A DNA stretch of 64,000 nucleotides from Clavibacter michiganensis. Its GTDB lineage: Bacteria; Actinomycetota; Actinomycetes; Actinomycetales; Microbacteriaceae. The stretch covers positions 3,038,001 to 3,102,000 of the forward strand of contig NZ_JAFBBJ010000001.1 in NCBI RefSeq assembly GCF_016907085.1, given 5' to 3'. The position numbers were made by a program, and so were the translations under genes. Positions 17,737 through 35,638 of the stretch are shown piece by piece; the first letter of the stretch is position 1; every line of letters begins with the position of its first letter. The notes under the pieces are model-generated. The model was not told where the DNA came from. It searched no databases and was given only the letters and a program-made list of their open reading frames with translations.

Positions 17737-17772
17737 TTGCCAACACCGTATGGCGTATTTGTAATATGTCAC
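17737..17772 (+). promoter_or_regulatory. promoter and overlapping operator of the GH127/oligopeptide-uptake operon
   Basis: A -35-like TTGCCA (17737-17742) and a -10-like TGTAAT (17760-17765) are separated by the ideal 17 bp. Overlapping the -10 box is GTAATATGTCAC (17761-17772), the exact reverse complement of GTGACATATTAC found at 28919-28930 in front of the hydroxyproline catabolic operon. The 12-mer is an imperfect dyad of the form GTnAnAT-nTnAC, typical of FadR-type GntR operators. The likely binder is the GntR regulator encoded at 28165-28878, acting as a repressor by blocking the -10 region. Confidence 0.72.
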
Positions 17773-17809
17773 CTACCACCGGCTACCCGAGGCCGGACGA
17801 GGGAGCGCC

Positions 17810-19816
17810 ATGGCAGTGACAGGAGCGGATGCGGACGCTATCCGCACGTGCGCGCGTCGCGCCGCCGTCCTCCCCAGCACCGGATCCCGACGCCCGCTGG
17901 GCGCCGACGCCGTCGCCCTCGAGGGCGGCCTGCTCGGGGCGTGGCAGGAGCGCAACCGGGCCCGCACCATCCCCCACGCCATCGCGTCCATGGCCGCAGC
18001 AGGCAACCTCGACGACCTCCGCGCGGCCGTCGACGGGCCGGGCGAGCGGCCCGTGCCGCGCTACCCGTTCCTCGACACCGACGTCTACAAGACCCTCGAG
18101 GGCGTGGCCTACGAGGTCGGCCGGGGCACCGCCAGCGCGGAGATGCGCGCCTTCCTCGCCGAGGCGACGGACGTGCTCGAGCGCGTCCAGGCGGAGGACG
18201 GCTACATCGGCTCGTACGTGCAGCGGCCCGGATCCGACCGCGAGCGCTGGTCCGACCTCGCGTGGGGCCACGAGCTCTACAACCTCGGGCACCTGATCCA
18301 GGCCGCCGTCGCCGACTCCCGTCAGGGCGGCGACGGCCGGCTCCTCGCCGTGGCCCGCCGCTTCGCCGACGCCGCGGTCCGCGAGTTCGGCCCGGGCGGA
18401 CGCGTCGAGGTCTGTGGCCACCCCGAGGTCGAGATGGCGCTCATCGAGCTGCACCGCGAGACGGGGGAGCGGGCGTACCTCGACCTCGCCGCCGCGTTCG
18501 TCGACCGCCGCGGGCACGGCACGGTGGCGACGCGGATCTTCCCGGCCGAGTACTTCCAGGACGCGCACCCCTTCCGCGAGATGCCGGCCGTCACGGGCCA
18601 TGCCGTCCGCATGGCGTACCTCGCCGCAGGCGCGACCGACGTGGCGACGGAGACGGGCGACGCCGAGCTGCTCGCCGCCTCCGTCCGCCTCTTCGACGAC
18701 GCCGTCCGCACCCGCCTCTACGTGACCGGCGGGCTCGGCAGCCGCCACTCGGACGAGGCGATCGGCGACGCGTACGAGCTGCCGAGCGAGCGCTCCTACA
18801 GCGAGACGTGCGCCGCCATCGCGCTGATGCAGTGGGCCTGGCGGCTCTTCCTCGCGACCGGCGAGCCGCGCTTCCTCGACACGTTCGAGACCGTGCTGCT
18901 GAACGCCTACGCGGTGGGCCTCTCCGCCGACGGCACGGGCTTCTTCTACGACAACCCGCTCCAGCGCCGCCCCGACCACCACGCGCAGTCGGGCGCCGAG
19001 ACCGAGGGCGAGCTGATGCGCCGCCCGTGGTTCACGTGCCCGTGCTGCCCGCCCAACATCGTGCGCTGGATGAGCGAGCTGCAGGACCACGTCGCGGTCC
19101 AGGACGGGGACGACCTCGTGATCGCGCACCCGGCTGCGTGCGTGATCCGCACCGATGCGATCGACGTGCGCGTGACGACCGCGTACCCGTGGGACGGCGC
19201 CGTGCGCGTCGAGGTGCTGCGCGCGTCCGGCGCGGAGAGCGGCATCGTGCTCCGCCGTCCGGGCTGGTGCCGCTCCGCGACCGCGGTCGTGCGGGGCGCC
19301 GACGGATCCGCCGCCGAGGTCGACGCCGCGGCCGACGACCGGTGGATCCGCGCCACCCGCGCCTGGGCCGCCGGCGACGCGCTCATGGTCGAGCTGGACA
19401 TGCCCGTGCGCGCCCTCGGATCCCACCCGCACCTCGACGCCACCCGGGGGACCCTCGCGGTGGCGCGCGGACCGGTCGTGTACGCGGTCGAGCAGGAGGA
19501 CGCCGGCGCCCCCGTCGACGACCTGCTCCTCGACCCGCGCGACCTGGCGGCAGCGCGACCCGTGCCGCTCCCGCTCGCCGGGCCGTGGGGTCCGGCGTCG
19601 GACGCCGCCGATCCCGCGTCGGGCCTCGCCCTCGCCGTGCGCCTCCGCCGCGCGCTCCCTGCGCCGGACGAGCTCTACCCCGAGGTCGTCCCCGGCCCCA
19701 TCGCCCCCGCCGCGTCGGCCGACCCCGTCGACGCCGTGCTCGTGCCGTACGCCCTCTGGGGCAACCGGTCGCCGGGCGCGATGCGGGTCTGGATCCGCGC
19801 CGCCGACACCGGCTGA
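17810..19816 (+). CDS. GH127 beta-L-arabinofuranosidase, cytoplasmic
   Basis: A 668-residue (alpha/alpha)6-barrel glycosidase of family GH127. The zinc/nucleophile signature of the Bifidobacterium enzyme HypBA1 is complete: Glu332 and Cys334 in SETCAAIAL, then Cys412 and Cys413 in CPCCPPNIVRW, where the first Cys of the pair is the nucleophile. The C-terminal third forms beta-sandwich domains. HypBA1 removes beta-L-arabinofuranose from the arabino-oligosaccharides attached to hydroxyproline in extensins. No signal peptide is present, so it acts on imported material. ATG follows GAGGGAG. It heads an operon of peptide uptake, proline-directed peptidases and a regulator. GH127 also contains other activities, so the exact sugar is inferred. 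Confidence 0.9.
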   Translation: MAVTGADADAIRTCARRAAVLPSTGSRRPLGADAVALEGGLLGAWQERNRARTIPHAIASMAAAGNLDDLRAAVDGPGERPVPRYPFLDTDVYKTLEGVAYEVGRGTASAEMRAFLAEATDVLERVQAEDGYIGSYVQRPGSDRERWSDLAWGHELYNLGHLIQAAVADSRQGGDGRLLAVARRFADAAVREFGPGGRVEVCGHPEVEMALIELHRETGERAYLDLAAAFVDRRGHGTVATRIFPAEYFQDAHPFREMPAVTGHAVRMAYLAAGATDVATETGDAELLAASVRLFDDAVRTRLYVTGGLGSRHSDEAIGDAYELPSERSYSETCAAIALMQWAWRLFLATGEPRFLDTFETVLLNAYAVGLSADGTGFFYDNPLQRRPDHHAQSGAETEGELMRRPWFTCPCCPPNIVRWMSELQDHVAVQDGDDLVIAHPAACVIRTDAIDVRVTTAYPWDGAVRVEVLRASGAESGIVLRRPGWCRSATAVVRGADGSAAEVDAAADDRWIRATRAWAAGDALMVELDMPVRALGSHPHLDATRGTLAVARGPVVYAVEQEDAGAPVDDLLLDPRDLAAARPVPLPLAGPWGPASDAADPASGLALAVRLRRALPAPDELYPEVVPGPIAPAASADPVDAVLVPYALWGNRSPGAMRVWIRAADTG

Positions 19817-19960
19817 GCCGTCCCCGCGCGCACGCCACCCGGATCCACCCGTTGCGGGGCGGTCGAGCGCACCTCCGCTTCCCATCCCTTCCATCGCACG
19901 ACCCCGTCCGTCACTCCCCACCCGGTGCGCCTCGGCCGCCATCCACGAAACGAGAGTCCG

Positions 19961-21640
19961 ATGAACCGACGAATCACCGCAGTAGGGCTGGCCGTCGCCG
20001 CCAGCCTCGCCCTCACGTCCTGCGCCGGCGCAGGATCGAAGTCCACCTCCGACGTCACCGGCCCCGCCGACACGGGCGGCGTCGTCCAGGTCCTGCAGGT
20101 CGCGGACTTCGCGCACCTCGACCCCGAGATGGGCTACGACACGGGCAGCGCGAACCTGTACCGGCTCATCTACCGCACGCTCACGACGCCCACGGGCAAG
20201 GACGGCGCCACCATGGCGCCCGACCTGGCCACCGACACCGGGACCCCGAACGCCGACGCGACCGAGTGGACGTTCACGCTCAAGGACGGCCTCAAGTTCG
20301 AGGACGGCTCTCCCATCACGAGCGAGTCCGTGAAGTTCGGCGTCGAGCGCTCCTTCGACCCGGCGCTCGCCATCGGCACGCCCTACACGCGCCTCTACCT
20401 CGCGGGCGGCGACTCCTACAAGGGCCCGTACGAGTCGGGCGACCTGTCCTCCATCGAGACGCCGGACGAGAAGACCATCGTCTTCCACCTCAACCGCTCC
20501 GTCCCCGAGTTCTCGAGCGTCGCGGCGCAGAGCACGTTCACGCCGTTCCCCGCCGACAAGGACAGGGTGACGGTCACGAGCATCGACCAGCAGCCCATCG
20601 CCTCCGGCCCGTACCGCGTGACCGAGCGCACCGTCGGATCCTCCCTCACCCTCGAGCGCAACCCCGAGTGGGACGCCTCCACCGACGAGGTGCGCACCGC
20701 GAAGCCCGACGGCTGGCACTTCACGAGCGGCCTCGACCAGGCCACCATCGACGAGCGCATGATCGCCGGCCAGGGCGACGACGCGAACGCCATCTCGGCG
20801 GGCATCACGGCGGCGTCGGTCGCGCGGATCCAGACCCCCCAGATCAAGGCGCGCACCGTGACCGGCGACAACGGCTGCACGACCTACCTGTCGCTCAACA
20901 TGACCAAGCCGCACCTCAGCGACCTCCGCGTGCGCCAGGCCATCGAGTATGCCGTGGACAAGAAGTCGCTCGCCGACGTCGCCGGCGGCCCCTCGATCGC
21001 CGAGCCCGCGTCGACGATGCTCACCCGCAGCGTCCCCGGCCACAAGGACTTCGACGTCTACCCGACCACCGACAGCGCCGGCGACGTCGACAAGGCGAAG
21101 GCCCTGCTCGCGGAGGCGGGCCTGCAGGACGGCTTCTCCGTCACCCTCGACGTGGCCGACACGACGAGCGCGAAGAAGGCGGCCGAGGCGCTGCAGCAGT
21201 CGCTCGGCAAGGTCGGGATCGACGTGCAGCTCAACATCCTCGACGCGTCCGCGTACAACGAGACGCTCGCGACGCCGTCGCAGCAGCACGACATGGCGGA
21301 GACGGGCTGGTGCCCGGACTGGAACTCGGCGAGCACGGTGCTGCCGGTGCTCTTCGACGGACGCCAGATCACCGAGAAGGGCAACAACAACAAGGCGCAG
21401 CTGAACGACGCGACCATCAACGCCCGCATCGACGAGATCTCCGCGATGACCGACCTCTCCGCGGCGAACACCGCGTGGGGCGACCTCGACGAGCAGATCC
21501 AGCAGCTCGCGCCCGTCGTGCCGCTCCTCTACGGCCAGGCCGTGCTGGTCCTCGGCCAGAACGTCCGGAACGCGTACGCGTCCCCGGTCTACAACGGATC
21601 CCCGGACTTCGCCACCCTCGGCCTCCACACGGGGAAGTAG
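19961..21640 (+). CDS. oligopeptide ABC transporter substrate-binding lipoprotein
   Basis: A 559-residue lipoprotein of the SBP_bac_5 (OppA/DppA) family. The signal peptide ends with the lipobox LALTSCAG (lipidated Cys about residue 20). The mature part has the family's LDPEMGYDTG region, a WTFTLKDGLKFEDGSPIT motif near residue 100-120 and RVRQAIEYAVDK near residue 325. It captures peptides at the outer membrane face of the cytoplasmic membrane. ATG 19961 follows a CGAGAG ribosome site; a longer frame upstream lacks one. It lies 144 bp after the GH127 gene. The context suggests hydroxyproline-containing (glyco)peptides as ligands. Confidence 0.93.
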   Translation: MNRRITAVGLAVAASLALTSCAGAGSKSTSDVTGPADTGGVVQVLQVADFAHLDPEMGYDTGSANLYRLIYRTLTTPTGKDGATMAPDLATDTGTPNADATEWTFTLKDGLKFEDGSPITSESVKFGVERSFDPALAIGTPYTRLYLAGGDSYKGPYESGDLSSIETPDEKTIVFHLNRSVPEFSSVAAQSTFTPFPADKDRVTVTSIDQQPIASGPYRVTERTVGSSLTLERNPEWDASTDEVRTAKPDGWHFTSGLDQATIDERMIAGQGDDANAISAGITAASVARIQTPQIKARTVTGDNGCTTYLSLNMTKPHLSDLRVRQAIEYAVDKKSLADVAGGPSIAEPASTMLTRSVPGHKDFDVYPTTDSAGDVDKAKALLAEAGLQDGFSVTLDVADTTSAKKAAEALQQSLGKVGIDVQLNILDASAYNETLATPSQQHDMAETGWCPDWNSASTVLPVLFDGRQITEKGNNNKAQLNDATINARIDEISAMTDLSAANTAWGDLDEQIQQLAPVVPLLYGQAVLVLGQNVRNAYASPVYNGSPDFATLGLHTGK

Positions 21641-21643: not shown

Positions 21644-22606
21644 GTGACCGCCACCCTCCAGGGCGCCTCGGCGCCCGACTCGGCCTCCCCGTACCCGACG
21701 GGACGACCGCCCGCCGTCACGCCGACGAAGCGCGTGGTCGCGGCCCTCCGGTCGAAGCCGTCCGTGATCCTCAGCACCGGGTTCGTGGTGCTCGTGATGA
21801 TCCTCGCGGTCTTCGCGCCCCTCCTGTCCGGGATCACCGGCTGGGGTCCCACGACCTTCGACGCGACGGCCGTGGACCCCGTGCTCGGCGGCCTCCCCAT
21901 CGGCCCGTTCGGCGGCGTCAGCGCCTCGCACTGGTTCGGCGTCGAGCCGCAGAACGGCCGCGACATCTTCGCGCGCATCGCGTACGGGGCCCGGGTGTCC
22001 ATGCTCATCGCGGTCTCGGCGACGGTCGTCACGACGACGGTCGGCGTGATCGCGGGCATGGTCGCGGGCTACTTCGGCGGGATCGTCGACCAGGTCGTGT
22101 CGCGGGTCATGGACTTCCTCATGGCCTTCCCGTCCCTGATCTTCATGATCGCGATCCTCTCGGCCCTGCCGGCGGGCAACCGCCCGGCGCTGCTCGTCCT
22201 GGTGCTCAGCATCTTCGGCTGGCCGTACACGGCGCGCATCGTCCGGGGCCAGACCATGACGATCCGCACGCGCGACTTCGTGGAGGCCGCGCGCGCATCC
22301 GGCGCCTCGTCGATGCGGGTGGTCTTCCGGGAGGTGCTGCCGAACCTGCGCGGCACCATCATCGTGCTGGCCACGCTGTCGGTGCCGAGCTACATCGGCA
22401 CGGAGGCGGGCCTGTCCTTCCTCGGCGTGGGCGTGCTGCCGCCGACGCCGTCGTGGGGCCAGATGATCGCCGACTCGGTGGCGTGGTACACGGTCGACCC
22501 CGCGTACTTCATCGTGCCGGGCTCGTTCCTCTTCCTCACGGTGCTGTCGTTCACGGTCTTCGGCGACCACCTCCGCACCGCGCTCGAGCAGGGGGAGGCG
22601 GCATGA
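21644..22606 (+). CDS. oligopeptide ABC transporter permease, OppC/DppC type
   Basis: A 320-residue permease with about six membrane helices. The extended N-terminus and first helix are OppC-like, followed by the large external loop with HWFGVEPQNGRDIFARI, the classic DppC/OppC motif. The coupling-helix EAA region is EAARASGASSMRVVFREVLPN. GTG start at 21644, three bases after the binding-protein stop. The C-type permease precedes the B-type here, the reverse of the commonest dpp/opp order. Stop and next start overlap (ATGA). Confidence 0.93.
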   Translation: MTATLQGASAPDSASPYPTGRPPAVTPTKRVVAALRSKPSVILSTGFVVLVMILAVFAPLLSGITGWGPTTFDATAVDPVLGGLPIGPFGGVSASHWFGVEPQNGRDIFARIAYGARVSMLIAVSATVVTTTVGVIAGMVAGYFGGIVDQVVSRVMDFLMAFPSLIFMIAILSALPAGNRPALLVLVLSIFGWPYTARIVRGQTMTIRTRDFVEAARASGASSMRVVFREVLPNLRGTIIVLATLSVPSYIGTEAGLSFLGVGVLPPTPSWGQMIADSVAWYTVDPAYFIVPGSFLFLTVLSFTVFGDHLRTALEQGEAA

Positions 22607-23595
22607 TCGGCTACCTCGTCCGCCGCGCCGGCGCGGCCCTCGTGGTGCTCGCGCTCATCAGCCTGTTCACCTACATGATCTTCTTCCTGCTCCAGCCGGA
22701 CCCCGCCGTCACCATCTGCGGCAAGACCTGCACGCCGGACAAGATCGACTCCATCCGTCAGCTCCTCGGGCTCGATCGCCCGTTCTGGGCGCAGTACGGC
22801 GACTTCGTCGCGGGCATCTTCACGGGCCGCACGTACGGCGACGGTCCGACGGCGATCCAGTGCGCCGCGCCGTGCCTGGGCTTCAGCTTCCAGACGCAGC
22901 AGTCCGTGCTCGACATGATGGTGACCCGCCTGCCCGTCAGCGCCACGCTCGCGATCGGCGCCGGCGTCCTCTGGGTCGTGTTCGGCGTCGCCGGTGGCCT
23001 CGTCAGCGCGATCAAGCAGGGCACCGGGTGGGATCGGGCCGCCATGGCCGCGGCGCTCACGGGGATCAGCGTGCCGACCTACTTCGCGGCGCTGCTCCTG
23101 CAGTACGTGCTCGTCGTGCAGCTGCAGATCCTGCCGTTCCCGCAGTCCGTGGACTTCGGCGACGACCCCGTCGTGTGGCTGGAGTCGTACATCATGCCGT
23201 GGATGGTGCTCGCGCTCGGCTACGCGGCCGTCTACGCGCGCATCGTGCGGGCCAACGTGATCGACACGCTGCAGGAGGACTACCTGCGCACCGCGCGGGC
23301 CAAGGGCCTGTCGGCGGCGCTCGTGATCCGCCGCCACGCGCTCCGGCCGTCGCTCACGCCGGTCGTGACGCTGTTCGGCATGGACTTCGCCGGGCTGCTC
23401 GGCGGGGCGCTGATCACCGAGACCGTGTTCGGCCTCAACGGCGTCGGCAAGCTCGCCGCCGACTCCATCGCCAAGAACGACCAGCCCGTCATCATGGGCG
23501 TCACGCTCCTCGCCGCGGCCTTCGTGGTCGTCGGGAACGTGGTCGTCGACGTGCTGTACACCGTGCTCGACCCCCGAGTGAGGATCACCGCGTGA
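22603..23595 (+). CDS. oligopeptide ABC transporter permease, OppB/DppB type
   Basis: A 330-residue permease with the OppB N-terminal helix (GYLVRRAGAALVVL), six predicted membrane helices, and the coupling loop YLRTARAKGLSAALVIRRHALR. The external loop after the first helix carries two Cys-x3-Cys pairs (CGKTC and CAAPC), a feature of many actinobacterial DppB proteins that may form disulfides outside the cell. The ATG overlaps the previous stop by four bases, and its own stop overlaps the next GTG, giving tight translational coupling. Confidence 0.93.
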   Translation: MIGYLVRRAGAALVVLALISLFTYMIFFLLQPDPAVTICGKTCTPDKIDSIRQLLGLDRPFWAQYGDFVAGIFTGRTYGDGPTAIQCAAPCLGFSFQTQQSVLDMMVTRLPVSATLAIGAGVLWVVFGVAGGLVSAIKQGTGWDRAAMAAALTGISVPTYFAALLLQYVLVVQLQILPFPQSVDFGDDPVVWLESYIMPWMVLALGYAAVYARIVRANVIDTLQEDYLRTARAKGLSAALVIRRHALRPSLTPVVTLFGMDFAGLLGGALITETVFGLNGVGKLAADSIAKNDQPVIMGVTLLAAAFVVVGNVVVDVLYTVLDPRVRITA

Positions 23596-24458
23596 CCGCC
23601 ACAGAGACGCACCGCCCGCCCGCCCGGGCCGTCCCGGGGACGCCGCTCCTCGAGGTCGACCACCTCACCATCGCGTTCCCCACCTCCCGGGGACCGGTCG
23701 AGGTGGTGAAGGACCTCTCCTTCCGCGTGGAGCCGGACAGCACCCTCGGCATCGTGGGGGAGTCGGGGTCGGGCAAGTCGATGACCTCGCTCGCCGTCAT
23801 GGGGCTCGTGCCCCGCGGCGGGAAGGTCACCGGATCCATCAAGCTGGCCGGCGAGGAGCTCGTCGGCCGGAGCGACAAGGAGCTGCGCGCGATGCGTGGC
23901 GACCGCATGGCGATGGTGTTCCAGGACCCGCTCTCCTCGCTCAACCCCTACTACACGGTGGGGCTGCAGATCGAGGAGGCCTACCGGTCCCATCGCTCCG
24001 GCTCCCGGAAGGCCGTGCGGTCGACCGTGGTGGCGGCGCTCGAGCGGGTGGGGATCAAGGAGGCGGGCACGCGCGTCGACCACTACCCGCACCAGTTCTC
24101 GGGCGGCATGCGCCAGCGCATCATGATCGCGATGGCGCTGTGCCTCGAGCCCGAGCTGCTCATCGCCGACGAGCCGACCACCGCGCTCGACGTGACGGTG
24201 CAGGCGCAGATCCTCGACCTCATGCGCTCCATCCGCGCGGAGACGGGGATGGGCATGCTCGTCATCACCCACGACCTCGCCGTCGTGTCCTCCCTCGCCG
24301 ACGAGGTGCTCGTCATGCAGGGCGGGCACCGCGTCGAGAGCGGCACCACCGAGCGCGTGTTCACCGCGCCGGAGGATCCGTACACGCACGCCCTGCTCGA
24401 GGCGATCCCCCGCATCGACGCCGCCTACGACCGACCGACGACGGGATCCGCCTCATGA
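23592..24458 (+). CDS. oligopeptide ABC transporter ATPase, OppD/DppD type
   Basis: A 288-residue ATPase with Walker A GESGSGKS near residue 57, Q-loop [12 protein letters not shown], signature FSGGMRQR and Walker [14 protein letters not shown]. The C-terminal [11 protein letters not shown] motif marks the oligopeptide/nickel subfamily. It starts with GTG at 23592 inside the permease stop (GTGA overlap); the longer open frame upstream is the shadow of the permease gene. It pairs with the next ATPase. Confidence 0.94.
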
Positions 24459-25384
24459 GCCCCCACGACGCCTCCGCGCCCTCGACCGCGCCCGCCGCGG
24501 CGACGCCGGAGCCCTTCCTCTCCGCGCGCGACCTCACGAAGGAGTACGTGACGCGCGGCGGCCGCGGGCTCCGGCCGCCCGTGCGGCGCTTCCTCGCGGT
24601 CGACGGCGTGAGCCTCGACGTGCCGACCGGGCAGACGCTCTCGATCGTGGGCGAGTCCGGATCCGGCAAGTCGACGACCGCGCGCATCATCGCGCACCTG
24701 CTCGACCCCACCTCCGGCACGTTCGCGCTGAAGGGCGAGGACATGACGCACGCGAAGGGCGCCGCCCTCCGCGAGTTCCGGCGGCAGGTGCAGGTGGTGT
24801 TCCAGGATCCGGCGTCGTCGCTCAATCCGCGGCACACGGTGGAGCAGATCATCAGCGCGCCGCTGCGGTACCAGGGCATCACGACGCCGGGCGGGCACGG
24901 GCAACTCGTGCGCGACCTGCTCGACCGCGTGGGCCTCGACCCCGACCACGCGCAGCGCTACCCGGCGCAGTTCTCGGGCGGGCAGTGCCAGCGCATCGGC
25001 ATCGCGCGGGCGCTCGCCGTGAGCCCGGGCCTGATCGTCTGCGACGAGGCGGTCTCCGCGCTCGACGTGACGGTCCAGGCGCGCGTCATCGCGCTGCTCC
25101 GCGACCTCCAGCGCGAGCGCGGCCTCAGCTACGTCTTCATCGCGCACGACCTCGCCGTCGTGCGGCAGCTCTCCGACCGCGTCGCCGTGATGAGCTCGGG
25201 CAAGGTCGTGGAGGAGGGCACGCGCGACGACGTGTTCGAGCGCCCGCAGCACCCGTACACGCGGTCGCTGCTCGACGCCGTGCCGCGCATCGACCCCGAG
25301 TGGGACCGCAAGCGCCGGATGGCGCGCGCCGCGGCCGGGCTCGACACCACCGCCATCGAGACGGCGGGCGGGTCGGCCGCTTGA
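24455..25384 (+). CDS. oligopeptide ABC transporter ATPase, OppF/DppF type
   Basis: A 309-residue ATPase with Walker [10 protein letters not shown] near residue 68, Q-loop VVFQDPASSLNP, signature FSGGQCQRIGIARAL and Walker B IVCDEAVSALDV. The usual Pro of DEPVSALD is replaced by Ala, a frequent OppF variant. The C-terminal QHPYTRSLLDAVP is the oligopeptide-binding region. The ATG overlaps the previous stop (ATGA) and the stop overlaps the TTG of the peptidase gene (TTGA). It completes a five-gene importer. Confidence 0.94.
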   Translation: MSPHDASAPSTAPAAATPEPFLSARDLTKEYVTRGGRGLRPPVRRFLAVDGVSLDVPTGQTLSIVGESGSGKSTTARIIAHLLDPTSGTFALKGEDMTHAKGAALREFRRQVQVVFQDPASSLNPRHTVEQIISAPLRYQGITTPGGHGQLVRDLLDRVGLDPDHAQRYPAQFSGGQCQRIGIARALAVSPGLIVCDEAVSALDVTVQARVIALLRDLQRERGLSYVFIAHDLAVVRQLSDRVAVMSSGKVVEEGTRDDVFERPQHPYTRSLLDAVPRIDPEWDRKRRMARAAAGLDTTAIETAGGSAA

Positions 25385-28164: not shown

Positions 28165-28878
28165 ATGAGCCTCTCCGCACTGCGACCCGCACCCCCGCGC
28201 GAGAGCCTGCGCGAGCACGTGCACCAGGCCCTGTCCGCGGCCATCGTGTCCGGCGAGCTGGAACCGGGCACGCTCATCACCGTGCCCACGCTCGCCGTGC
28301 GCTTCGACGTCTCGGCCACGCCCGTCCGCGAGGCGGTGCTCGAGCTGGAGAAGCGCGGGTTCGTGGAGACGGTCCGCAACAAGGGATTCCGCGTCACCGC
28401 CGTGAGCGACGAGGAGCTCGGTCACCTGGTGCAGGTGCGCCAGCTCCTCGAGGCGCCGGCCATGGAGCGGCTCGCCGGGCGGCTGCCCGACGGCGCGCTC
28501 CCGGGCCTCGAGGCGCTCGCCGACCGCATCGAACAGGGCGCGCGCGACGGGGACCTCCGCGCGTACCTCGAGGCCGACCAGGAGTTCCACCTCTCCCTGA
28601 CGCGCATGCTCGGCAACCCCGTGCTCACGGACGCCATCGCCGACCTCCGCTCGCGCACGCGCCTCGTCGGACTCGCGTCGATGAAGGAGAGCGCGATGCT
28701 CGACGCGTCCGCGGCCGAGCACCACGAGCTGCTGCGGGCGCTCGTCGCCGGTGACGGCCCGGGGTCCCACCAGCTGATGGTGCGGCACATCCGCCACGCC
28801 ACCGGGTGGTGGGCGGGACGCGGCGAGGACGAGGCCACGGGCGTCGCGGAACCCGTGCACGCGGATCCCGTCGCCTGA
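28165..28878 (+). CDS. GntR-family regulator, FadR/FCD subfamily, of the hydroxyproline/glycopeptide operons
   Basis: A 237-residue regulator with an N-terminal winged HTH (about 10-80: VSATPVREAVLELEKRGFVE) and an FCD domain whose metal-ligand pattern is visible (DQEFHLSL, GNPVL, EHHELL, VRHIRHA). I choose ATG 28165, which has GAGGAGGA a few bases upstream and lies 19 bp after the peptidase stop. The longer frame starting at 28123 overlaps the peptidase and has no ribosome site. It is the last gene of the uptake operon and faces the promoter of the catabolic operon. The 12-mer GTGACATATTAC in front of both operons is its probable operator, giving coordinated control and autoregulation. The inducer may be hydroxyproline or a pathway intermediate (inference). 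Confidence 0.9.
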   Translation: MSLSALRPAPPRESLREHVHQALSAAIVSGELEPGTLITVPTLAVRFDVSATPVREAVLELEKRGFVETVRNKGFRVTAVSDEELGHLVQVRQLLEAPAMERLAGRLPDGALPGLEALADRIEQGARDGDLRAYLEADQEFHLSLTRMLGNPVLTDAIADLRSRTRLVGLASMKESAMLDASAAEHHELLRALVAGDGPGSHQLMVRHIRHATGWWAGRGEDEATGVAEPVHADPVA

Positions 28879-28918: not shown

Positions 28919-28936
28919 GTGACATATTACTGTCAC
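28919..28936. promoter_or_regulatory. operator GTGACATATTACTGTCAC upstream of the hydroxyproline catabolic operon
   Basis: An 18-bp element with perfect six-base arms (GTGACA and TGTCAC) around TATTAC. Its first 12 bases are the exact reverse complement of the site at 17761-17772. TATTAC or CATATT within it are -10-like hexamers, so the operator probably overlaps the core promoter, as at the other site. It sits 56 bp before the first catabolic gene and 40 bp after the regulator gene. Confidence 0.7.
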
Positions 28937-28991: not shown

Positions 28992-30206
28992 ATGACGCGT
29001 CACGTGGTCGTCGTCGGCGGGGGCATCGTGGGCGCGGCGTGCGCCCGCTCGCTCGCCCGGGCGGGGATCCGCGTCACGGTCGTCGAGCGCGCCGCGGTCG
29101 CCTCCGGCACGAGCGCGCAGGGCGAGGGCAACATCCTCGTCTCCGACAAGGGCCCGGGCGCGGAGCTCGAGCTCGCGCAGCTGGCCGCCCGCCGCTGGCC
29201 CGAGGTCGCCGCGGAGCTCGCGGACGAGCTGGGCGACGCGCTGCCCTCCATCGAGTACGAGCCCAAGGGCGGGCTCGTCGTGACGACCACGGACGAGGGC
29301 GCGGATCCGCTCCTCGCCTTCGCCGCCAACCAGCGCTCCGCGGGCGTCGACGCGATCCCCGTCGACGTGCGCCGGGCGCTCGAGCTCGAGCCGTGGCTGA
29401 ACCCGGCGATCACCGCGGCCGTGCACTACCCCGAGGACGCGCAGGTGCAGCCCGCCATCGCGACCGAGGCCCTCGCCGCGTCGGCCCGGCGGGCAGGCGC
29501 GGTCGTGCGGACGGGCGTCGAGGTGACCGGCCCGATCCTCGACGCGCACGGCGCTCTCCGCGGCGTGCGCACGAGCGCGGGCGACATCGCGGCGGACGAC
29601 GTGCTGATCGCCGCCGGCCCGTGGTCGGGCGAGGTGGCGCGCGCCCTCGGCGTCGAGCTGCCGGTGCTGCCGCGGCGCGGCGTCGTGCTCGTCACGACGC
29701 GCATGCCGCACCGCATCCGGCACAAGGTCTACGACGGCGACTACGTGGGCGCGGTCGGATCCGGCGACGGCGCGCTGCAGACCTCGGGCGTCGTGGAGTC
29801 GACGCCGTCGGGGACCGTGCTCATCGGATCCAGCCGCGAGCGCGTGGGCTTCGACGCCTCGCTGCGCGTGGCCGTGCTCGAGGAGCTCGCCGCGAAGGCC
29901 GTGCGGCTCTTCCCCTTCCTCGTGGAGGCGAACGCGATGCGCTCGTACGGCGGCTTCCGCCCGTACCTGCCCGACCACCTGCCCGTCGTCGGACCGGATC
30001 CGCGGCTGCCCGGCCTCTGGCACGCGAGCGGGCACGAGGGTGCCGGCATCGGGCTGTCGATCGCGACGGCCGACCTCATCGCCGCGCAGATGACGGGCGA
30101 GGCGACCCCGCTCGACGTGCGGCCCTTCTCCGTGGCGCGCGCCTCGCTCGGGCTGCGCATGCCCGACGCCGCGATGCCGACCGACGCCGCCGGGGTGCGC
30201 GCGTGA
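28992..30206 (+). CDS. FAD-dependent D-hydroxyproline dehydrogenase, DAO-type catalytic subunit
   Basis: A 404-residue flavoprotein of the DAO (D-amino-acid oxidase/sarcosine oxidase) superfamily. The ADP-binding motif VVVGGGIVGAACA is at the N-terminus, and the C-terminal FAD-binding segment is RPYLPDHLPVVG then HASGHEGAGIGLS. In hydroxyproline degraders this subunit oxidises cis-4-hydroxy-D-proline to 1-pyrroline-4-hydroxy-2-carboxylate. The start is ATG 28992 after AGGGA. The stop overlaps the GTG of the [2Fe-2S] subunit. The three consecutive genes resemble the LhpB/E/F or HcnABC-like heterotrimer. Substrate is inferred from the complete pathway around it. Confidence 0.9.
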   Translation: MTRHVVVVGGGIVGAACARSLARAGIRVTVVERAAVASGTSAQGEGNILVSDKGPGAELELAQLAARRWPEVAAELADELGDALPSIEYEPKGGLVVTTTDEGADPLLAFAANQRSAGVDAIPVDVRRALELEPWLNPAITAAVHYPEDAQVQPAIATEALAASARRAGAVVRTGVEVTGPILDAHGALRGVRTSAGDIAADDVLIAAGPWSGEVARALGVELPVLPRRGVVLVTTRMPHRIRHKVYDGDYVGAVGSGDGALQTSGVVESTPSGTVLIGSSRERVGFDASLRVAVLEELAAKAVRLFPFLVEANAMRSYGGFRPYLPDHLPVVGPDPRLPGLWHASGHEGAGIGLSIATADLIAAQMTGEATPLDVRPFSVARASLGLRMPDAAMPTDAAGVRA

Positions 30207-30553
30207 CGCCGCGGCGCGTGGATCCGGCGCGGGACCCGATCCGCCCGGAGCCGGCCGCGGCCGTGCGCTTCACCGTGGACGGGGATCCCGTCGAGGGCGT
30301 CCGCGGCCAGACCATCGCGGGCGCCCTGCTCGCCTCCGGCACGCTCGCCTGGCGCACGACCGCGAGCGCGGGCCGTCCGCGGGGCGTCTTCTGCGGGATC
30401 GGCGTGTGCTTCGACTGCACCGTCACCGTGAACGGTCTGCCCGACGTGCGCGCCTGCCAGCGCCGCGCCGTCGAGGGCGACGTGGTGGAGACCGGGCCGG
30501 GTGCGACCGTGCCCGACGCCGGATCGGCCGAGCGCGCGGGGGAGGCGTCGTGA
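30203..30553 (+). CDS. [2Fe-2S] ferredoxin-like subunit of the D-hydroxyproline dehydrogenase
   Basis: A 116-residue protein of the HcnA/SoxA-N-terminal-like ferredoxin family. Cluster ligands are visible as Cys64, Cys69, Cys72 and Cys85 (CGIGVCFDC then ACQR), the plant-type spacing. It carries electrons between the two flavin subunits. GTG start in the stop of the previous gene, and its own TGA overlaps the GTG of the next, so the three subunits are made stoichiometrically. Confidence 0.9.
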   Translation: MTPRRVDPARDPIRPEPAAAVRFTVDGDPVEGVRGQTIAGALLASGTLAWRTTASAGRPRGVFCGIGVCFDCTVTVNGLPDVRACQRRAVEGDVVETGPGATVPDAGSAERAGEAS

Positions 30554-32154
30554 GCGCCGCGGACGACCGGCGCCACGTCGTCGTCGTCGGCGCGGGCCCG
30601 GCCGGGCTCGCCGCCGCGGTCGCCGCGCGCGGACGCGGGGCGCGGGTCACGCTGCTCGACGCGACCGACGAGCTGGGCGGCCAGTACTGGCGGCACCTGC
30701 CGGAGTCGCGGCCGGCGGCGCGCGAGCGCATCCTGCACCACGGCTGGGACGCGTTCACCGCGCTCCGTTCCCGGCTCGCCGCCGACGACGGCTGCGCGAT
30801 CGTGACGGGCGCGCAGGTGTGGGCGATCGAGCGGCCGGCGCCGGACGCGAGCGCCGCCGCGGACACCGCCGATGCCGCCGCCGCGCCGCCCGCCGCCGTC
30901 GTCCACGTGCTCGTCGGCCAGGTCGACGGATCCCGCCGCGAGCCCCTGACTCTCCGCCCGGACGCGCTCGTGCTCGCGACCGGCGCGCAGGACCGCACGC
31001 TGCCCTTCCCCGGCTGGGACCTGCCGGGCGTCTTCACCGCGGGCGCCGCGCAGGCCCTCGCGAAGGGCGAGCGCGTGCGCGTCGGCGACCGCGTGATCGT
31101 CGCGGGCGCCGGCCCCTTCCTCCTGCCCGTCGCGGTGTCGCTCGTGCAGGCGGGGGCGCGCGTGGTCGGGATCCACGAGGCCGCGCGCGTGCCGGGGCTC
31201 GCCCGCGGCTGGCTGCGGCGTCCGGCGGGCCTCGCCCGTGCGCCGCACAAGGCCGCCGAGCTCGCCGGGTACGTCTCCGTGCTGGCGCGCGAGCGCATCG
31301 GCTACACGACCGGCAGCGCGGTCGTCGCCGCGCACGGCACCGACCGCGTCGAGGCCGTGACCGTGCAGCGCCTCGACGCGTCGTGGGCGCCGATCCCGGG
31401 CACCGAGCGGCGGATCGCCGTGGACGCCGTGTGCGTCGGCCACGGCTTCACTCCCCGGCTCGAGCTGCCGATCGCCGCGGGCTGCCGCATCGGCGCCGAC
31501 CGCTTCGTCGAGGTCGACGCGGACCAGGGCGCCGGACCCGCTGGCGTCTTCGCCGCGGGCGAGATCACCGGCATCGGGGGAGTGGACCAGGCGCTCGCGG
31601 AGGGCGAGGTCGCCGGGCACTGCGCGGCGGGCGGATCCCCGACCGACGCCACGATCGCCCCCGCCGTCCGCCGCCGGGCCGTCGCGCACGACGTGGCCGG
31701 GCGCATCGAGGCCGCGCACGGGATCCGCCCCGGCTGGACCGGCTGGCTCCGCGACGACACGCTCGCCTGCCGCTGCGAGGAGGTGCCCGTCGGGCGTCTG
31801 CGCGCGACCGCCCGCGCCGCCGCATCCACCGACCTCCGCTCCATGAAGCTCGCGACGCGCGCCGGCCTCGGCATCTGCCAGGGTCGCGTCTGCGGGCGGA
31901 CCGTCGAGCAGCTGCTCGCGGCGGAGGCGCCGGCGTGCGGAGCCGCACCCGCCGCACCGGCCGGCCCCGGATCCGACCGCCGTCCCATCGCCTCGCCCGT
32001 GCGCCTCGGCGAGCTCGCCGCCGCCTACGAGCGCCGGGACGCCGGACCCCCGTCCCTCGCCGCGGCCGCGCCCGGCGCCGACGACCCGCGCGAGCACGCG
32101 CCCCCGACCACCCCCGCACCCCTGAGCACCACCGACCGGAAGGACCTGCCATGA
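30550..32154 (+). CDS. NAD(P)/FAD-dependent oxidoreductase subunit with C-terminal [2Fe-2S] domain
   Basis: A 534-residue flavoprotein of the HcnB/opine-oxidase A type. The FAD-binding motif VVVGAGPAGLAAA is near residue 10, the second dinucleotide motif VIVAGAGPFLLPVA is near residue 185, and the FAEGEITG-like motif is VFAAGEITGIGG. A BFD-like [2Fe-2S] region follows, with CRCEEV near residue 410 and GICQGRVCG near 440. The last 80 residues are Ala/Pro-rich and probably disordered. A low-complexity Ala insertion lies around residues 98-115. It is the third subunit of the amino-acid dehydrogenase, passing electrons toward the respiratory chain. Confidence 0.88.
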   Translation: MSAADDRRHVVVVGAGPAGLAAAVAARGRGARVTLLDATDELGGQYWRHLPESRPAARERILHHGWDAFTALRSRLAADDGCAIVTGAQVWAIERPAPDASAAADTADAAAAPPAAVVHVLVGQVDGSRREPLTLRPDALVLATGAQDRTLPFPGWDLPGVFTAGAAQALAKGERVRVGDRVIVAGAGPFLLPVAVSLVQAGARVVGIHEAARVPGLARGWLRRPAGLARAPHKAAELAGYVSVLARERIGYTTGSAVVAAHGTDRVEAVTVQRLDASWAPIPGTERRIAVDAVCVGHGFTPRLELPIAAGCRIGADRFVEVDADQGAGPAGVFAAGEITGIGGVDQALAEGEVAGHCAAGGSPTDATIAPAVRRRAVAHDVAGRIEAAHGIRPGWTGWLRDDTLACRCEEVPVGRLRATARAAASTDLRSMKLATRAGLGICQGRVCGRTVEQLLAAEAPACGAAPAAPAGPGSDRRPIASPVRLGELAAAYERRDAGPPSLAAAAPGADDPREHAPPTTPAPLSTTDRKDLP

Positions 32155-33068
32155 CCGCACCCGCCCTGGACCTCGGAGGCGTCGTCGTCGCCACCACGCT
32201 GCCGTTCCGCGAGGACGCGTCGGCCCCCGCCGGCCTCGCCGTCGACTACGACGCGTACGCCGCCCACTGCGACTGGCTCATGGCGAACGGCTGCCGCGGC
32301 GTCGGCCCGAACGGATCCCTCGGCGAGTACTCCTCGCTCACCGACGAGGAGCGCCGCAAGGTCGTGCAGGTCGCGGTCGAGACCGTGGGCGACCGCGGGA
32401 TCGTCGTCGCCGGGGTGCACGGCGTCGGCTGGCACCAGGCCAAGAAGTGGGCCGAGATCGCGGCCGAGGACGGCGCCGACGGCGTGCTGCTCCTCCCGCC
32501 CACCATCTACCGGGCGAGCGACGACGAGGTCGTCGAGCACTACGCGCGCGTCGACGAGGTGGGCCTGCCGATCATGGCCTACAACAACCCGTTCGACACC
32601 AAGGTCGACCTCACGCCGCAGCTCCTCCAGCGCCTCGACGCGCTCGAGAACGTCGTGGCGATCAAGGAGTTCTCGGGCGACATCCGGCGCGTGACGGAGA
32701 TCCAGGACCTCACGGGCCTCGACGTCATCGCGGGCGCCGACGACCTGCTGCTCGAGTCGCTCATCATGGGCGCCGTCGGCTGGTTCGCCGGCTACCCGAA
32801 CGCGTTCCCCCGCGAGGCCGTCGAGCTGTACGGGCTCGCGACCAGCGGCCGCATCGAGGAGGCGAAGGCGCTGTACCAGCACCTCGTGCCCGTGTTCCGC
32901 TGGGACTCGCGCACCGAGTTCGTGCAGGCCATCAAGCTGTCGATCGACGTGGCCGGCGAGAGCACGGGCGGCCCGACGCGTCCGCCGCGCGCGCCGCTGC
33001 CCGCCGCCGTCGCGGAGCAGGTCACGCGCGACACGCGCCGCGCGCTCGACCACCTCGCCGGGCGATGA
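32151..33068 (+). CDS. 1-pyrroline-4-hydroxy-2-carboxylate deaminase (DHDPS family)
   Basis: A 305-residue class I aldolase-fold enzyme of the dihydrodipicolinate synthase superfamily. The Schiff-base Lys172 is in VVAIKEFSGD and the catalytic Tyr144 is in MAYNNPF. The substrate-carboxylate motif is GPNGSLGEYSSLT, in place of GTTGE. The LhpC/PyrH group converts 1-pyrroline-4-hydroxy-2-carboxylate to 2-oxoglutarate semialdehyde plus ammonia. Assignment as this deaminase rather than a lysine-pathway enzyme rests on the neighbours: a D-amino-acid dehydrogenase upstream, an epimerase and a semialdehyde dehydrogenase downstream. ATG overlaps the preceding stop. Confidence 0.9.
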   Translation: MTAPALDLGGVVVATTLPFREDASAPAGLAVDYDAYAAHCDWLMANGCRGVGPNGSLGEYSSLTDEERRKVVQVAVETVGDRGIVVAGVHGVGWHQAKKWAEIAAEDGADGVLLLPPTIYRASDDEVVEHYARVDEVGLPIMAYNNPFDTKVDLTPQLLQRLDALENVVAIKEFSGDIRRVTEIQDLTGLDVIAGADDLLLESLIMGAVGWFAGYPNAFPREAVELYGLATSGRIEEAKALYQHLVPVFRWDSRTEFVQAIKLSIDVAGESTGGPTRPPRAPLPAAVAEQVTRDTRRALDHLAGR

Positions 33069-33075: not shown

Positions 33076-34077
33076 ATGAGGTCCTCCCGCGTCTTCCACG
33101 CCGTCGACTCGCACACCGAGGGCATGCCGACCCGCGTCGTCACGAGCGGCTTCGGCGTGATCCCCGGCTCCACCATGAACGAGCGCCGCCTGCACCTGAT
33201 CGAGCACCTCGACCACCTGCGGCTCCTGCTCATGACGGAGCCGCGCGGCCACGCGGCGATGAGCGGCGCGATCCTGCAGCCGCCCACGCGCGACGACTGC
33301 GACTGGGGCGTCCTCTACATCGAGGTGTCCGGCTGCCTGCCGATGTGCGGGCACGGCACCATCGGCGTCGCGACCGTGCTCGTGGAGACCGGGCTCGTCG
33401 AGGTGCAGGAGCCGGTCACCACGATCCGGCTCGACACCCCGGCCGGCCTCGTGATCGCGCGCGTCGACGTGGAGGACGGCCGGGCCGCCTCGGTCACGAT
33501 CGAGAACGTCCCCTCCTACGTGGAGCGGCTCGACGCCTCCATCGAGGTCCCCGGCTACGGCACCGTGCCCTACAACCTCGCGTTCGGCGGCAACTTCTAC
33601 GCGGTCGTCGAGCTCGACGCGCTGGGGCTGCCCTTCGACCGGGGACGACAGCAGGAGATCCTCCAGGCCGGGCTCGCGATCATGGGCGCCATCAACGACC
33701 AGGACGCGCCGTCGCACCCGGAGATCTCCGGGGTCGACCACTGCCACCACGTGGAGTTCCTCGCGCCGGGATCCGACGCGCGGCTCTCGCGGCACGCCAT
33801 GGCGATCCACCCCGGCTGGTTCGACCGCTCGCCGTGCGGCACCGGCACGTCCGCGCGCATGGCCGAGCTGTGGGCGCGCGGCGAGCTGGCGGTGGGCGAC
33901 GACTTCGTCAACGAGTCGTTCATCGGCAGCCGCTTCACCGGCCGGATCCTGCGCGAGACCACCGTCGCCGGCCGGCCCGCGATCGTCCCCGCCATCACCG
34001 GGCGCGCGTGGATCACCGGCATGGGACAGTACCTGCTGGATCCCACCGACCCGTTCCCGAGCGGCTTCCGGTTCTGA
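33076..34077 (+). CDS. 4-hydroxyproline 2-epimerase (proline racemase family)
   Basis: A 333-residue proline-racemase-family enzyme. Both catalytic Cys residues are present, Cys91 in PMCGHGTIG and Cys254 in SPCGTGTSA, which marks racemase/epimerase activity rather than the trans-3-hydroxyproline dehydratases that lack the first Cys. In this pathway it turns trans-4-hydroxy-L-proline into cis-4-hydroxy-D-proline. Other motifs are DSHTEGMPTRVV at the N-terminus and a GRAWITGMGQ-like C-terminus. It begins seven bases after the deaminase stop. Proline racemase proper is an alternative, but the pathway context is strong. Confidence 0.92.
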   Translation: MRSSRVFHAVDSHTEGMPTRVVTSGFGVIPGSTMNERRLHLIEHLDHLRLLLMTEPRGHAAMSGAILQPPTRDDCDWGVLYIEVSGCLPMCGHGTIGVATVLVETGLVEVQEPVTTIRLDTPAGLVIARVDVEDGRAASVTIENVPSYVERLDASIEVPGYGTVPYNLAFGGNFYAVVELDALGLPFDRGRQQEILQAGLAIMGAINDQDAPSHPEISGVDHCHHVEFLAPGSDARLSRHAMAIHPGWFDRSPCGTGTSARMAELWARGELAVGDDFVNESFIGSRFTGRILRETTVAGRPAIVPAITGRAWITGMGQYLLDPTDPFPSGFRF

Positions 34078-34103
34078 ACCGCGAGCCCCCACCGAGGAGA
34101 GAC

Positions 34104-35603
34104 ATGACCCCGCACGAGACCGACACGACCACCGACCCGTCCGTGGAGGCGACCGTGGACGCCGTCGCCGCGCGCGCCGCCCGCGCCGCCGCGCCCCTCG
34201 CAGCCCTGGCGCCCGCGGCCCGCGCCCGCGCGCTCGAGGCCGTCGCCGACGCGCTGGAGGCGATCCGTCCCGAGCTGCTGCCCGTCGCCGAGCGGGAGAC
34301 CGCGCTCGCGCCCGGCCGCCTCGCCGGCGAGCTGACGCGCACGACCGTGCAGCTGCGGATCCTCGCGGCCGCCGTGCGCGACGGCCGCTACCTCGACGCG
34401 CGCATCGACCACGCCGATCCCGACGCGGCTCCCGCCCCGCGCCCCGACATCCGCCGGTACCTCGTGCCCGTCGGCCCGGTCCTCAACTTCGCGGCGTCGA
34501 ACTTCCCGTTCGCGTTCTCCGTCGCAGGCGGCGACACCGCGTCGGCGCTCGCGGTCGGCTGCCCGGTGGTCGCGAAGGCGCACCCGGGGCACCCCGAGCT
34601 GTCGCGCCTCGTCGCGGCGGCCGCGTCCGCCGCGCTCGTCGAGGCCGGCCTGCCCGAGGGCACGCTGCAGCTCATCGAGGGCGAGGAGGCGGGGCTCGCC
34701 ATGCTGCGCGACCCGCGCATCCGCGCCGCCACCTTCACGGGATCGCTCCGCGCCGGCCGCTTCCTCGCCGACGTCGCCGCCGCCCGCCCCGACCCGATCC
34801 CGTTCTTCGGCGAGCTCGGCAGCGTCAACCCCGTCGTCATCACCGAGCGCGCCGCCGCCGAGCGCGGGGAGGACATCGCGTCCGCCCTCGTCGCGAGCGC
34901 CGCCGGATCCGCCGGGCAGCTCTGCACCGCGCCCGGCATCGTGCTGATCCCCGCGGGCCACGGCCTCGACGCCGTGCTCGCGGAGGAGGCCGGTGCCGTC
35001 GCCCCGCACGGCATGCTCAACCAGAGGATCGCCGAGGGCTACGCGGGCGGCCGCGCCGCCGCCATCGCGGTCGACGGCGTGCGGCTCGTCGCGGAGGGCC
35101 GCGCGCCCGCCGCCGAGGACGGATCCGTGACCCCCACCATCGCCGCCGTGTCGCTCACGGACTTCGAGGCTGCGGAGGACGTGCTCCGCCACGAGGTGTT
35201 CGGCCCGTTCGCGCTCCTGGTCGAGTACCCCGCGGGCACCGACCTCGCCGCCCTCGCGGCCCGCACCTTCCCGGGCGAGCTGACCGCGAGCGTCCACCTC
35301 GGCGAGGGCGAGGCCGATGCGGCCGCGGCCGAGCTGATCCGCGTGCTCGCCGCCCGCGCCGGCCGCGTGCTCGTCGACGCCTGGCCCACGGGCGTCTCCG
35401 TCACCGACGCGCAGCAGCACGGCGGACCCTGGCCCGCCACCACCCTCGACCGCGGCACGAGCGTCGGCACCGCGTCGCTCGACCGGCTGCTCCGCGGCGT
35501 CGCGTTCCAGGGCGTCCCGGACGCGCTGCTGCCCGAGCCGCTGCGCACCGCGAACCCGTGGGGCGTGCCCCAGCGGGTGAGCGCGCGCGGCGCCCGCGCC
35601 TGA
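34104..35603 (+). CDS. 2-oxoglutarate-semialdehyde dehydrogenase (ALDH superfamily)
   Basis: A 499-residue NAD(P)-dependent aldehyde dehydrogenase of the KGSADH type. Catalytic Glu237 is in FFGELGSVNP and catalytic Cys274 in GQLCTAPG. Cofactor-binding segments are FAASNFPFAFSVAGGD, KAHPGHPE and TFTGS. The C-terminal QQHGGPWPATT is characteristic of the 2-oxoglutarate-semialdehyde group. It converts the semialdehyde to 2-oxoglutarate, delivering hydroxyproline carbon to the TCA cycle. ATG follows GAGGAGAG. Last gene of the operon; a strong hairpin starts 11 bp after the stop. Confidence 0.92.
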   Translation: MTPHETDTTTDPSVEATVDAVAARAARAAAPLAALAPAARARALEAVADALEAIRPELLPVAERETALAPGRLAGELTRTTVQLRILAAAVRDGRYLDARIDHADPDAAPAPRPDIRRYLVPVGPVLNFAASNFPFAFSVAGGDTASALAVGCPVVAKAHPGHPELSRLVAAAASAALVEAGLPEGTLQLIEGEEAGLAMLRDPRIRAATFTGSLRAGRFLADVAAARPDPIPFFGELGSVNPVVITERAAAERGEDIASALVASAAGSAGQLCTAPGIVLIPAGHGLDAVLAEEAGAVAPHGMLNQRIAEGYAGGRAAAIAVDGVRLVAEGRAPAAEDGSVTPTIAAVSLTDFEAAEDVLRHEVFGPFALLVEYPAGTDLAALAARTFPGELTASVHLGEGEADAAAAELIRVLAARAGRVLVDAWPTGVSVTDAQQHGGPWPATTLDRGTSVGTASLDRLLRGVAFQGVPDALLPEPLRTANPWGVPQRVSARGARA

Positions 35604-35613
35604 CGCGCGACAC

Positions 35614-35638
35614 GGCCGCCCGGGTCGCCCGGGCGGCC
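35614..35638 (+). terminator. hairpin terminator of the hydroxyproline operon
   Basis: A perfect 11-bp GC stem (35614-35624 with 35628-35638) and a three-base loop, 11 bp after the stop of the aldehyde dehydrogenase gene. There is no T-tract. Confidence 0.75.

Follow-up and report, generated by a model that had tools for sequence, protein, structure and literature searches.

A candidate route for scavenging arabinosylated hydroxyproline peptides in Clavibacter michiganensis, with a likely HypR-type operator at both of its operons

We found that two adjacent operons on the plus strand of a 64,000-nucleotide stretch of the Clavibacter michiganensis genome (assembly GCF_016907085.1, contig NZ_JAFBBJ010000001.1, positions 3,038,001 to 3,102,000; hereafter the window, from whose first letter coordinates are counted) probably form one scavenging route, by which arabinosylated hydroxyproline (Hyp) peptides would be imported, deglycosylated and cut inside the cell, and their hydroxyproline catabolised. 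The first-pass annotation of this DNA had put forward the same glycopeptide-scavenging model, which gains support from our tests of co-occurrence and of a shared operator. HypR with a Hyp operon and GH127 enzymes in bifidobacteria are each already known separately; new here, as judged from sequence, are a locus regulator that matches HypR and a single 12-base likely operator that precedes both the GH127 gene and hypO. The genes, their conserved order, the shared site with its genome-wide exclusivity and the HypR-specific residues can be read directly from the DNA, and each enzyme step is one that we infer from family and context. The locus comprises the following features.

17761..17772, plus strand: likely HypR-type operator GTAATATGTCAC, 37 bp upstream of the GH127 start; word common to both promoters
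17810..19816, plus strand: GH127 beta-L-arabinofuranosidase-like protein, 668 aa (PF07944 280 bits, PF20736, PF20737)
19961..21640, plus strand: oligopeptide-type substrate-binding lipoprotein (SBP_bac_5; PF00496 258 bits)
21644..22606, plus strand: permease, OppC/DppC type (NCBIfam Opp4C 241 bits, below cut-off 350)
22603..23595, plus strand: permease, OppB/DppB type (NCBIfam Opp2B 240 bits, below cut-off 350)
23592..24458, plus strand: ATPase, OppD/DppD type (NCBIfam OppD 299 bits, below cut-off 575)
24455..25384, plus strand: ATPase, OppF/DppF type (NCBIfam dipeptide ATPase 305 bits, below cut-off 408)
25381..26688, plus strand: PIP, a prolyl aminopeptidase-like alpha/beta hydrolase (S33 type; PF00561 53 bits; TTG start overlaps previous stop)
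26685..28145, plus strand: PepP-like Xaa-Pro aminopeptidase (M24 + AMP_N; PF00557 152 bits, PF05195 53 bits)
28165..28878, plus strand: GntR/FadR-subfamily regulator, predicted HypR orthologue (PF00392, PF07729; alternative upstream ATG at 28123)
28919..28930, minus strand: second likely HypR-type operator GTAATATGTCAC, 61 bp upstream of hypO
28992..30206, plus strand: D-hydroxyproline dehydrogenase FAD subunit (hypO, SCO6289-like; PF01266 222 bits)
30203..30553, plus strand: D-hydroxyproline dehydrogenase 2Fe-2S subunit (SCO6290-like; PF13510 85 bits)
30550..32154, plus strand: D-hydroxyproline dehydrogenase large subunit (SCO6291-like; PF07992 84 bits; soxA-type match 98 bits)
32151..33068, plus strand: pyrroline-4-hydroxy-2-carboxylate deaminase (DapA family, SCO6292-like; PF00701 151 bits)
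33076..34077, plus strand: 4-hydroxyproline 2-epimerase (PF05544 428 bits; NCBIfam 348.8 bits, cut-off 376)
34104..35603, plus strand: aldehyde dehydrogenase, predicted 2-oxoglutarate semialdehyde dehydrogenase (PF00171 127 bits; nearest solved 3v4c, 1eyy)

A de novo comparison of the GH127 and hypO promoter regions returned several short matches common to both and, with them, one long AT-rich word, GTAATATGTCA(C). As a 12-base site allowing up to one mismatch, it has two matches in the whole genome of 3,319,545 bases (~3.32 Mb), both at the locus, and the reversed control has none. The first-pass annotation had expected the operons to be co-regulated, and as far as an operator shows this holds: the site lies upstream of both and nowhere else in the genome. 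With up to two mismatches, 49 of the 56 distinct hypO upstreams carry GTAATATGTCA (0.5 expected), as do at least 35 of 87 GH127 upstreams (1.6 expected); the latter scan, with starts placed by alignment and a limit of 200 bases, missed at least one site (an exact one, in L115; L and G numbers are our labels for loci and genomes), so that its count is a lower bound. The form GTAATRTGTCAC, with A or G at one base and otherwise exact, gave 39 matches in 19 of 20 family genomes picked for carrying the Hyp operon, as against one in the control; among those 20, only G099 had no match. All 39 precede genes of the system: 19 hypO, 15 GH127, two a binding-protein gene that belongs to a different importer (G102, G219), two a sodium:alanine symporter (G124, G186) and one PepP (G180). 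The site upstream of GH127 in G092 also faces a divergent GntR gene, both operons of G118 carry the operator although they lie 1.16 Mb apart, and in Plantibacter (G158, G212) the same base is changed, to the G form, at both sites.

The regulator encoded between the operons points to what this site is. Read from the start at 28165, the GntR protein shares with HypR of Streptomyces coelicolor, identically numbered, the residues of the DNA site in the winged helix-turn-helix (S50, T52, R55, R71 and N72) and of the metal site (H142, H186 and H208, with E96, D138 and E185); R92 and F141 are also shared, and L209 of HypR is Ile here. In S. coelicolor, HypR is reported to bind TACAATGTCAC and TGCAATGTCAC and to repress the SCO6289-6293 operon, whose genes L-Hyp induces in the wild type (PMC6608401). 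The operator core ATGTCAC is common to both organisms, and the first half reads GTAAT here versus TGCA or TACA there. In several loci of Streptomyces, Kribbella and other actinomycetes, GH127 is preceded by the published form TGCAATGTCAC, exact or with one change; outside the Microbacteriaceae, the published HypR site occurs with up to one mismatch in 29 of 57 GH127 upstreams (0.55 expected). When either operator form is accepted at that stringency, sites are found in 27 of 30 GH127 and 40 of 47 hypO upstreams within the Microbacteriaceae, and in 31 of 57 and 5 of 9, respectively, outside. Because the published site precedes GH127 outside the family and the regulator residues match, the word found de novo is probably the local form of an operator proven elsewhere, and we infer that the GntR protein of the locus binds it.

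Other arrangements under this operator were seen in relatives. In L184 (5583-7100 and 4240-6786, both on the minus strand) a sodium:alanine symporter gene with an exact operator 38 bases upstream is followed by a gene for an MFS permease (Pfam), and this pair possibly serves the uptake of free hydroxyproline within the same regulon. In loci L095 and L096 (G102 and G219) the same operator precedes another Opp-type importer with PIP and PepP, and the fetched stretch shows no GH127; this importer is perhaps a route for bare Hyp peptides. In G180 (L213, L088), PepP and GntR lie under one operator and, after about 10 kb of other sequence, the Hyp operon lies under another.

The layout of the locus agrees with this division into two units. 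From 17810 to 28878 run GH127, the binding lipoprotein, permease C, permease B, two ATPases, PIP, PepP and GntR, and from 28992 to 35603 the three dehydrogenase subunits, the deaminase, the epimerase and the aldehyde dehydrogenase. With the starts we chose, each gene from permease C to PepP overlaps the next by 4 bases, and so do those from hypO to the deaminase, which fits two operons; for some genes, among them PIP (TTG) and the 2Fe-2S gene, the overlap alone decided the start. The first-pass annotation had described two adjacent plus-strand operons of GH127, importer, peptidase and Hyp genes, and all of these are present in the order given; its gene list was correct as far as it went and omitted the GntR/FCD regulator (28165-28878) between them. 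Its span, 17737 to 35638, is to be narrowed to 17810 (the GH127 start) through 35603 (the end of the aldehyde dehydrogenase gene), since the TTG at 17737 belongs to an overlapping frame. It had also noted that GH127 and both peptidases lack signal peptides, and in a hydropathy scan, which is not a signal-peptide predictor, a hydrophobic N-terminus above the cut-off was found in none of 93 GH127, 86 PIP and 77 PepP orthologues and in 82 of 94 binding proteins, all 94 of which match a permissive lipobox pattern.

Conservation of the gene set extends well beyond this genome. The complete order was found in all 14 congener loci fetched, from 17 congeners; in one fragmented draft (G002) GH127 is in two pieces and the epimerase is present. 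Among 199 genomes sampled from the family, hypD occurs in 43, PIP in 39 and the GH127 clade (cut at 648 bits or more, the next match being 488) in 15, and all 15 also carry hypD and PIP, with only 55% identity for the hypD of G020 (Fisher p 1e-11 and 2e-12, rough values given that the genomes are related). Outside the genus 40 hypD loci were compared: the whole order, all in one direction, is present in eight, and one (L115) is divergent and has no PIP beside it; in the other 31 the fetched stretch contains no clade GH127, some of them being contig ends or hypD plus hypE only. Hyp operons without the module are therefore common, as free Hyp use would predict. The order kept in other genera is more than chance.

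A scan of GTDB with one genome per species, using the best 80 of 84 relatives, yielded 74 clade loci after six were dropped at 41% identity or less. Four of the 74 have too little downstream sequence; in the 70 with at least 9 kb, all five importer genes accompany GH127 in 69, PIP in 62, PepP in 55 and a flanking Hyp gene in 45. The exception to the importer link, L139 from Streptomyces, has kept GH127, PIP, PepP, the deaminase and the epimerase, but its binding protein is reduced to a remnant of 84 residues. Where no Hyp gene lies nearby (25 loci, taken together with L047), an epimerase of at least 69% identity is encoded elsewhere in 25 of 26 genomes, the miss being L168. In a class sample of 296 genomes, GH127 matches occur in 11, six of them in the clade (at least 57% identity), and an epimerase in 74; all six clade genomes carry it (p 2e-4, likewise a rough value), and among the five genomes with GH127 at 47-50% identity an epimerase match was found in none. 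The co-occurrence in relatives that the first-pass annotation had called for is thus found at each level, with hypD and PIP (15 of 15), importer (69 of 70) and epimerase (six of six). The clade forms one group with support 100/100 in a tree of 59 rows (40 of 75 clade rows, labelled by identity of 48% or more, and all 19 others).

We rejected the notion that any GH127 accompanies the module, as L048-L052 (GH127 of 41-45% identity) lack module genes apart from weak ATPase matches at two of these loci; they are also missing from the six dropped GTDB loci, of which L198 has weak ATPase matches and L197 and L199 are short contigs. Two GH127 genes outside the clade nonetheless lie near Hyp operons, in L110 (G140; 39-42% identity) and at G216:C11:436415-438316 (40%, about 4.4 kb from hypD), maybe an independent pairing of GH127 with Hyp genes.

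The GH127 protein itself carries the catalytic, middle and C-terminal domains PF07944, PF20736 and PF20737, all above cut-off. Its residues E316, E332, C334, C410, C412, C413, H154, Y157, H204 and R267 align with the active and zinc site of HypBA1 of Bifidobacterium longum, where the reference sites are E338, C340, C417 and C418, the acid/base E322 and the substrate residues H142, Y145, H194 and R273. The two enzymes have the same catalytic residues, and the aligned catalytic and zinc residues are invariant across ten clade members. Against solved structures the protein scores 301 bits for 6ex6, 293 for 4qjy, 261 for 3wkw and 217 for 5mqo. Enzymes of GH146, kin of GH127, are reported to act on Araf-beta-Hyp (PMC10850190), which makes this bond plausible as the target. 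The genome has one match over cut-off for the arabinose isomerase AraA, so that released arabinose could be used. It also holds a second, distant GH127-family gene (G000:C1:2597570-2598715, 368.6 bits, in an 803-residue frame).

The importer genes make a complete Opp/Dpp set within one operon: a binding lipoprotein, two permeases and two ATPases. By profile the nearest solved relative of the binding protein is OppA2 of Streptomyces clavuligerus (2wok, 377 bits; next 190 bits), a protein named for a clavulanic acid cluster. An AlphaFold2 model (pLDDT 88) has as its top fold matches 2wop and 2wok, OppA2 with arginine and bradykinin, at 33% identity; most of the 50 fold matches listed are peptide binders, and the rest include proteins that bind sialic acid, opines and other small molecules, so a peptide-binder fold is predicted. 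On the affinity for Hyp/Pro peptides, which the first-pass annotation had made a condition of its model, this fold and the nearest relative bear only indirectly. The best solved match of PIP is 8jgn (AT3G61540, a plant enzyme; 330 bits), followed by proline iminopeptidases at 33 bits or less, and from fold family and gene context we predict that it works like a prolyl aminopeptidase. The reference list of a review cites a bacterial prolyl aminopeptidase as highly active on acetylated hydroxyproline (PMC9147577), which suggests that enzymes of this type can accept a decorated ring.

In the second operon, the first-pass annotation had seen every step from trans-4-hydroxy-L-proline to 2-oxoglutarate, and genes for each are indeed present, with the steps assigned by family. 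The epimerase carries a Cys91/Cys254 pair and residues of the HypE type at two of three sites, Ser63 (site 1, Ser/Val not Phe) and His225 (site 4); site 5, placed by eye on the alignment, is Ile, which is neither type. Its best NCBIfam family is 4-hydroxyproline epimerase (NF010578; 348.8 bits, cut-off 376). In the corresponding operon of S. coelicolor, deletion of the epimerase is reported to abolish growth on Hyp (PMC6608401), and by analogy the operon here would serve hydroxyproline catabolism.

One could thus envision the following sequence. Glycopeptides would first be released by an outside enzyme and then captured by the binding protein, and hydroxyproline peptides would enter through the Opp-type importer, likely with arabinose still attached. 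In the cytoplasm GH127 would strip the arabinose, PIP and PepP, two proline-directed peptidases, would cut the deglycosylated peptide, and the Hyp operon would oxidise hydroxyproline to 2-oxoglutarate. HypR, the GntR protein between the operons, would repress both until hydroxyproline or a product of it appears. The strongest hint of entry with the sugar still attached comes from the place of GH127, at the head of the importer genes in 69 of 70 clade loci; in G102 and G219, by contrast, a different importer stands under the same operator and the fetched stretch shows no GH127. The plant sources may be extensins, arabinogalactan proteins or signalling peptides that carry arabinose. A secreted-looking HEFGH-type zinc-peptidase-like protein with an LPRTG-like end lies beside the module in L184 (7243-9864, minus strand); in Microbacterium, Krasilnikoviella and Isoptericola such genes are divergent from GH127 or follow PepP (L172, L175, L179). 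It is a candidate outer protease for the system; no solved chain matched it, its Pfam families are sub-threshold and its AlphaFold2 model is poor (pLDDT 47).

Several observations weigh against this route. Neither operator form, at up to one mismatch, is found in 26 of 57 GH127 upstreams outside the Microbacteriaceae and 3 of 30 inside, or in 7 of 47 hypO upstreams inside and 4 of 9 outside, and in S. coelicolor L-Hyp is reported to have left HypR binding in vitro unchanged (PMC6608401). The module is dispensable, since in one congener (G013, L206) GH127, the importer, PIP and most of PepP have been lost together, so that RecQ adjoins the last 41 PepP residues while GntR, operator and Hyp operon are retained, and another (G014) has neither a GH127 orthologue nor an epimerase match. 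PIP is missing from 8 of the 70 clade loci and PepP from 15, and PIP is only weakly like curated prolyl aminopeptidases (NCBIfam 38 bits, cut-off 260). GH127 is remote from characterised members, at 217-301 bits to the solved ones, and its sole NCBIfam match is aceric acid hydrolase (NF049879) at 314 bits, with a cut-off of 950; the sequence therefore does not fix which bond is cleaved. An Opp importer may be unable to accommodate something as bulky as a tetra-arabinoside, and no outer trimming enzyme is found among the locus genes.

Finally, the importer could carry bare Hyp or Pro peptides and GH127 serve another substrate. In the alternative that survives best, which we judge improbable, importer and peptidases take such peptides from collagen or non-glycosylated wall protein, and GH127 belongs to the regulon only because free beta-arabino-oligosaccharides come along with them, enter separately and are then split by it. 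Collagen peptides stay a rival because the S. coelicolor HypR regulon is reported to include a secreted M9 collagenase, read as collagen use (PMC6608401). XeHypBA1 (GH146) and HypBA1 are also described as cleaving free arabinobiose (PMC10850190). The PIP, PepP and different Opp set of G102 and G219 under the same operator would suit bare peptides as well, but the binding-protein subfamily linked to GH127 is only 30% identical to theirs, GH127 heads the importer genes almost throughout its clade, and Pfam and NCBIfam typing of the locus genes found no sugar-type importer among them. The hydroxyproline of collagen, moreover, is not known to carry arabinose.

Much less likely is that the substrate of GH127 is a side chain of pectin (rhamnogalacturonan II, with an aceric-acid-type linkage) and that the enzyme is tied to Hyp genes only through a common plant-tissue signal. 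The sole NCBIfam match points that way, but it lies so far under the curated cut-off that we rejected GH127 as an aceric acid hydrolase; the clade accompanies Opp, PIP, PepP, Hyp genes and the HypR operator, and 6ex6, 4qjy and 3wkw all outscore 5mqo, the aceric acid enzyme. That two independent systems lie side by side by chance in this genus is hardly credible, even with 31 of 40 hypD loci outside the genus lacking the module in what was fetched and with the module able to sit elsewhere (G118, G020), and chance adjacency was rejected on the order kept in other genera, the importer link, the co-occurrence (15 of 15 and six of six) and a private operator common to both operons even 1.16 Mb apart.

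The import of intact arabinosylated peptides followed by cytoplasmic cleavage would, if true, be the reverse of the one bacterial route that we found described for the arabinose of hydroxyproline-rich glycoproteins, in which bifidobacteria strip the sugar outside the cell, by an outer enzyme found also in Xanthomonas (PMC7263609). The HypAA/HypBA2/HypBA1 system of B. longum resembles the present locus in having an intracellular GH127 beside an ABC importer and in its concern with the same arabinose; there, by contrast, a disaccharide is stripped outside and the sugar (beta-Ara2) imported (PMC7263609, PMC10850190), whereas in Clavibacter a peptide-type importer is followed by peptidases and Hyp catabolism. 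No GH121 occurs among the genes of the locus, the part of the genome searched for it. With SCO6289-SCO6293 the locus shares the order of three-subunit dehydrogenase, deaminase and epimerase, a FadR-type regulator alike by residue and the operator core (PMC6608401); it differs in that the aldehyde dehydrogenase follows within the operon. The S. coelicolor regulon also holds a 2-oxoglutarate dehydrogenase beside the collagenase, GH127, a peptide importer, PIP and PepP are all absent from its table, and "arabino" does not occur in the main text of that report (PMC6608401). Genome neighbourhoods described for 4HypE epimerases have the same Hyp enzyme families and transport systems near the epimerase, and ABC/TRAP transporters and peptidases are mentioned close to another superfamily cluster; the account, as far as its available text goes, mentions neither GH127 nor "arabino" (PMC4113996). 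The first-pass annotation knew of no description of the whole. We likewise did not find peptide import with internal deglycosylation under HypR in open-licence literature, a description elsewhere being possible; the Hyp operon with HypR had already been described in S. coelicolor (PMC6608401).

Were the proposed route correct, it would represent a second strategy, in plant and soil actinomycetes, that uses the protein part too and is likely HypR-controlled, and an entire GH127 clade and an importer subfamily, both so far named only by family, would gain a function. The operator would define the regulon, and loss of GH127 should leave arabinosylated peptides inside the cell. More speculatively, and with a good deal of doubt, a widespread actinomycete route that imports arabinosylated Hyp peptides whole and deglycosylates them in the cytoplasm might, in members that live on plants, also swallow arabinosylated plant signalling peptides and so could dampen host signalling.

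The locus is flanked by RecQ upstream and an acyl-CoA oxidase (35786-38044) downstream. Farther upstream, before thioredoxin and RecQ, is a protein with endonuclease/exonuclease/phosphatase and bacterial Ig-like domains (12595-14901). Downstream lie two tandem large proteins with right-handed beta-helix/NosD domains (41081-46993) and a 1964-residue protein with several PKD and laminin-G domains (52212-58106). Near the latter are a bacterial sugar transferase (47157-48884), a glycosyltransferase (48886-50118) and a sub-threshold Wzy_C match (58270-59643); the 1964-residue protein is maybe a surface protein in an exopolysaccharide region.

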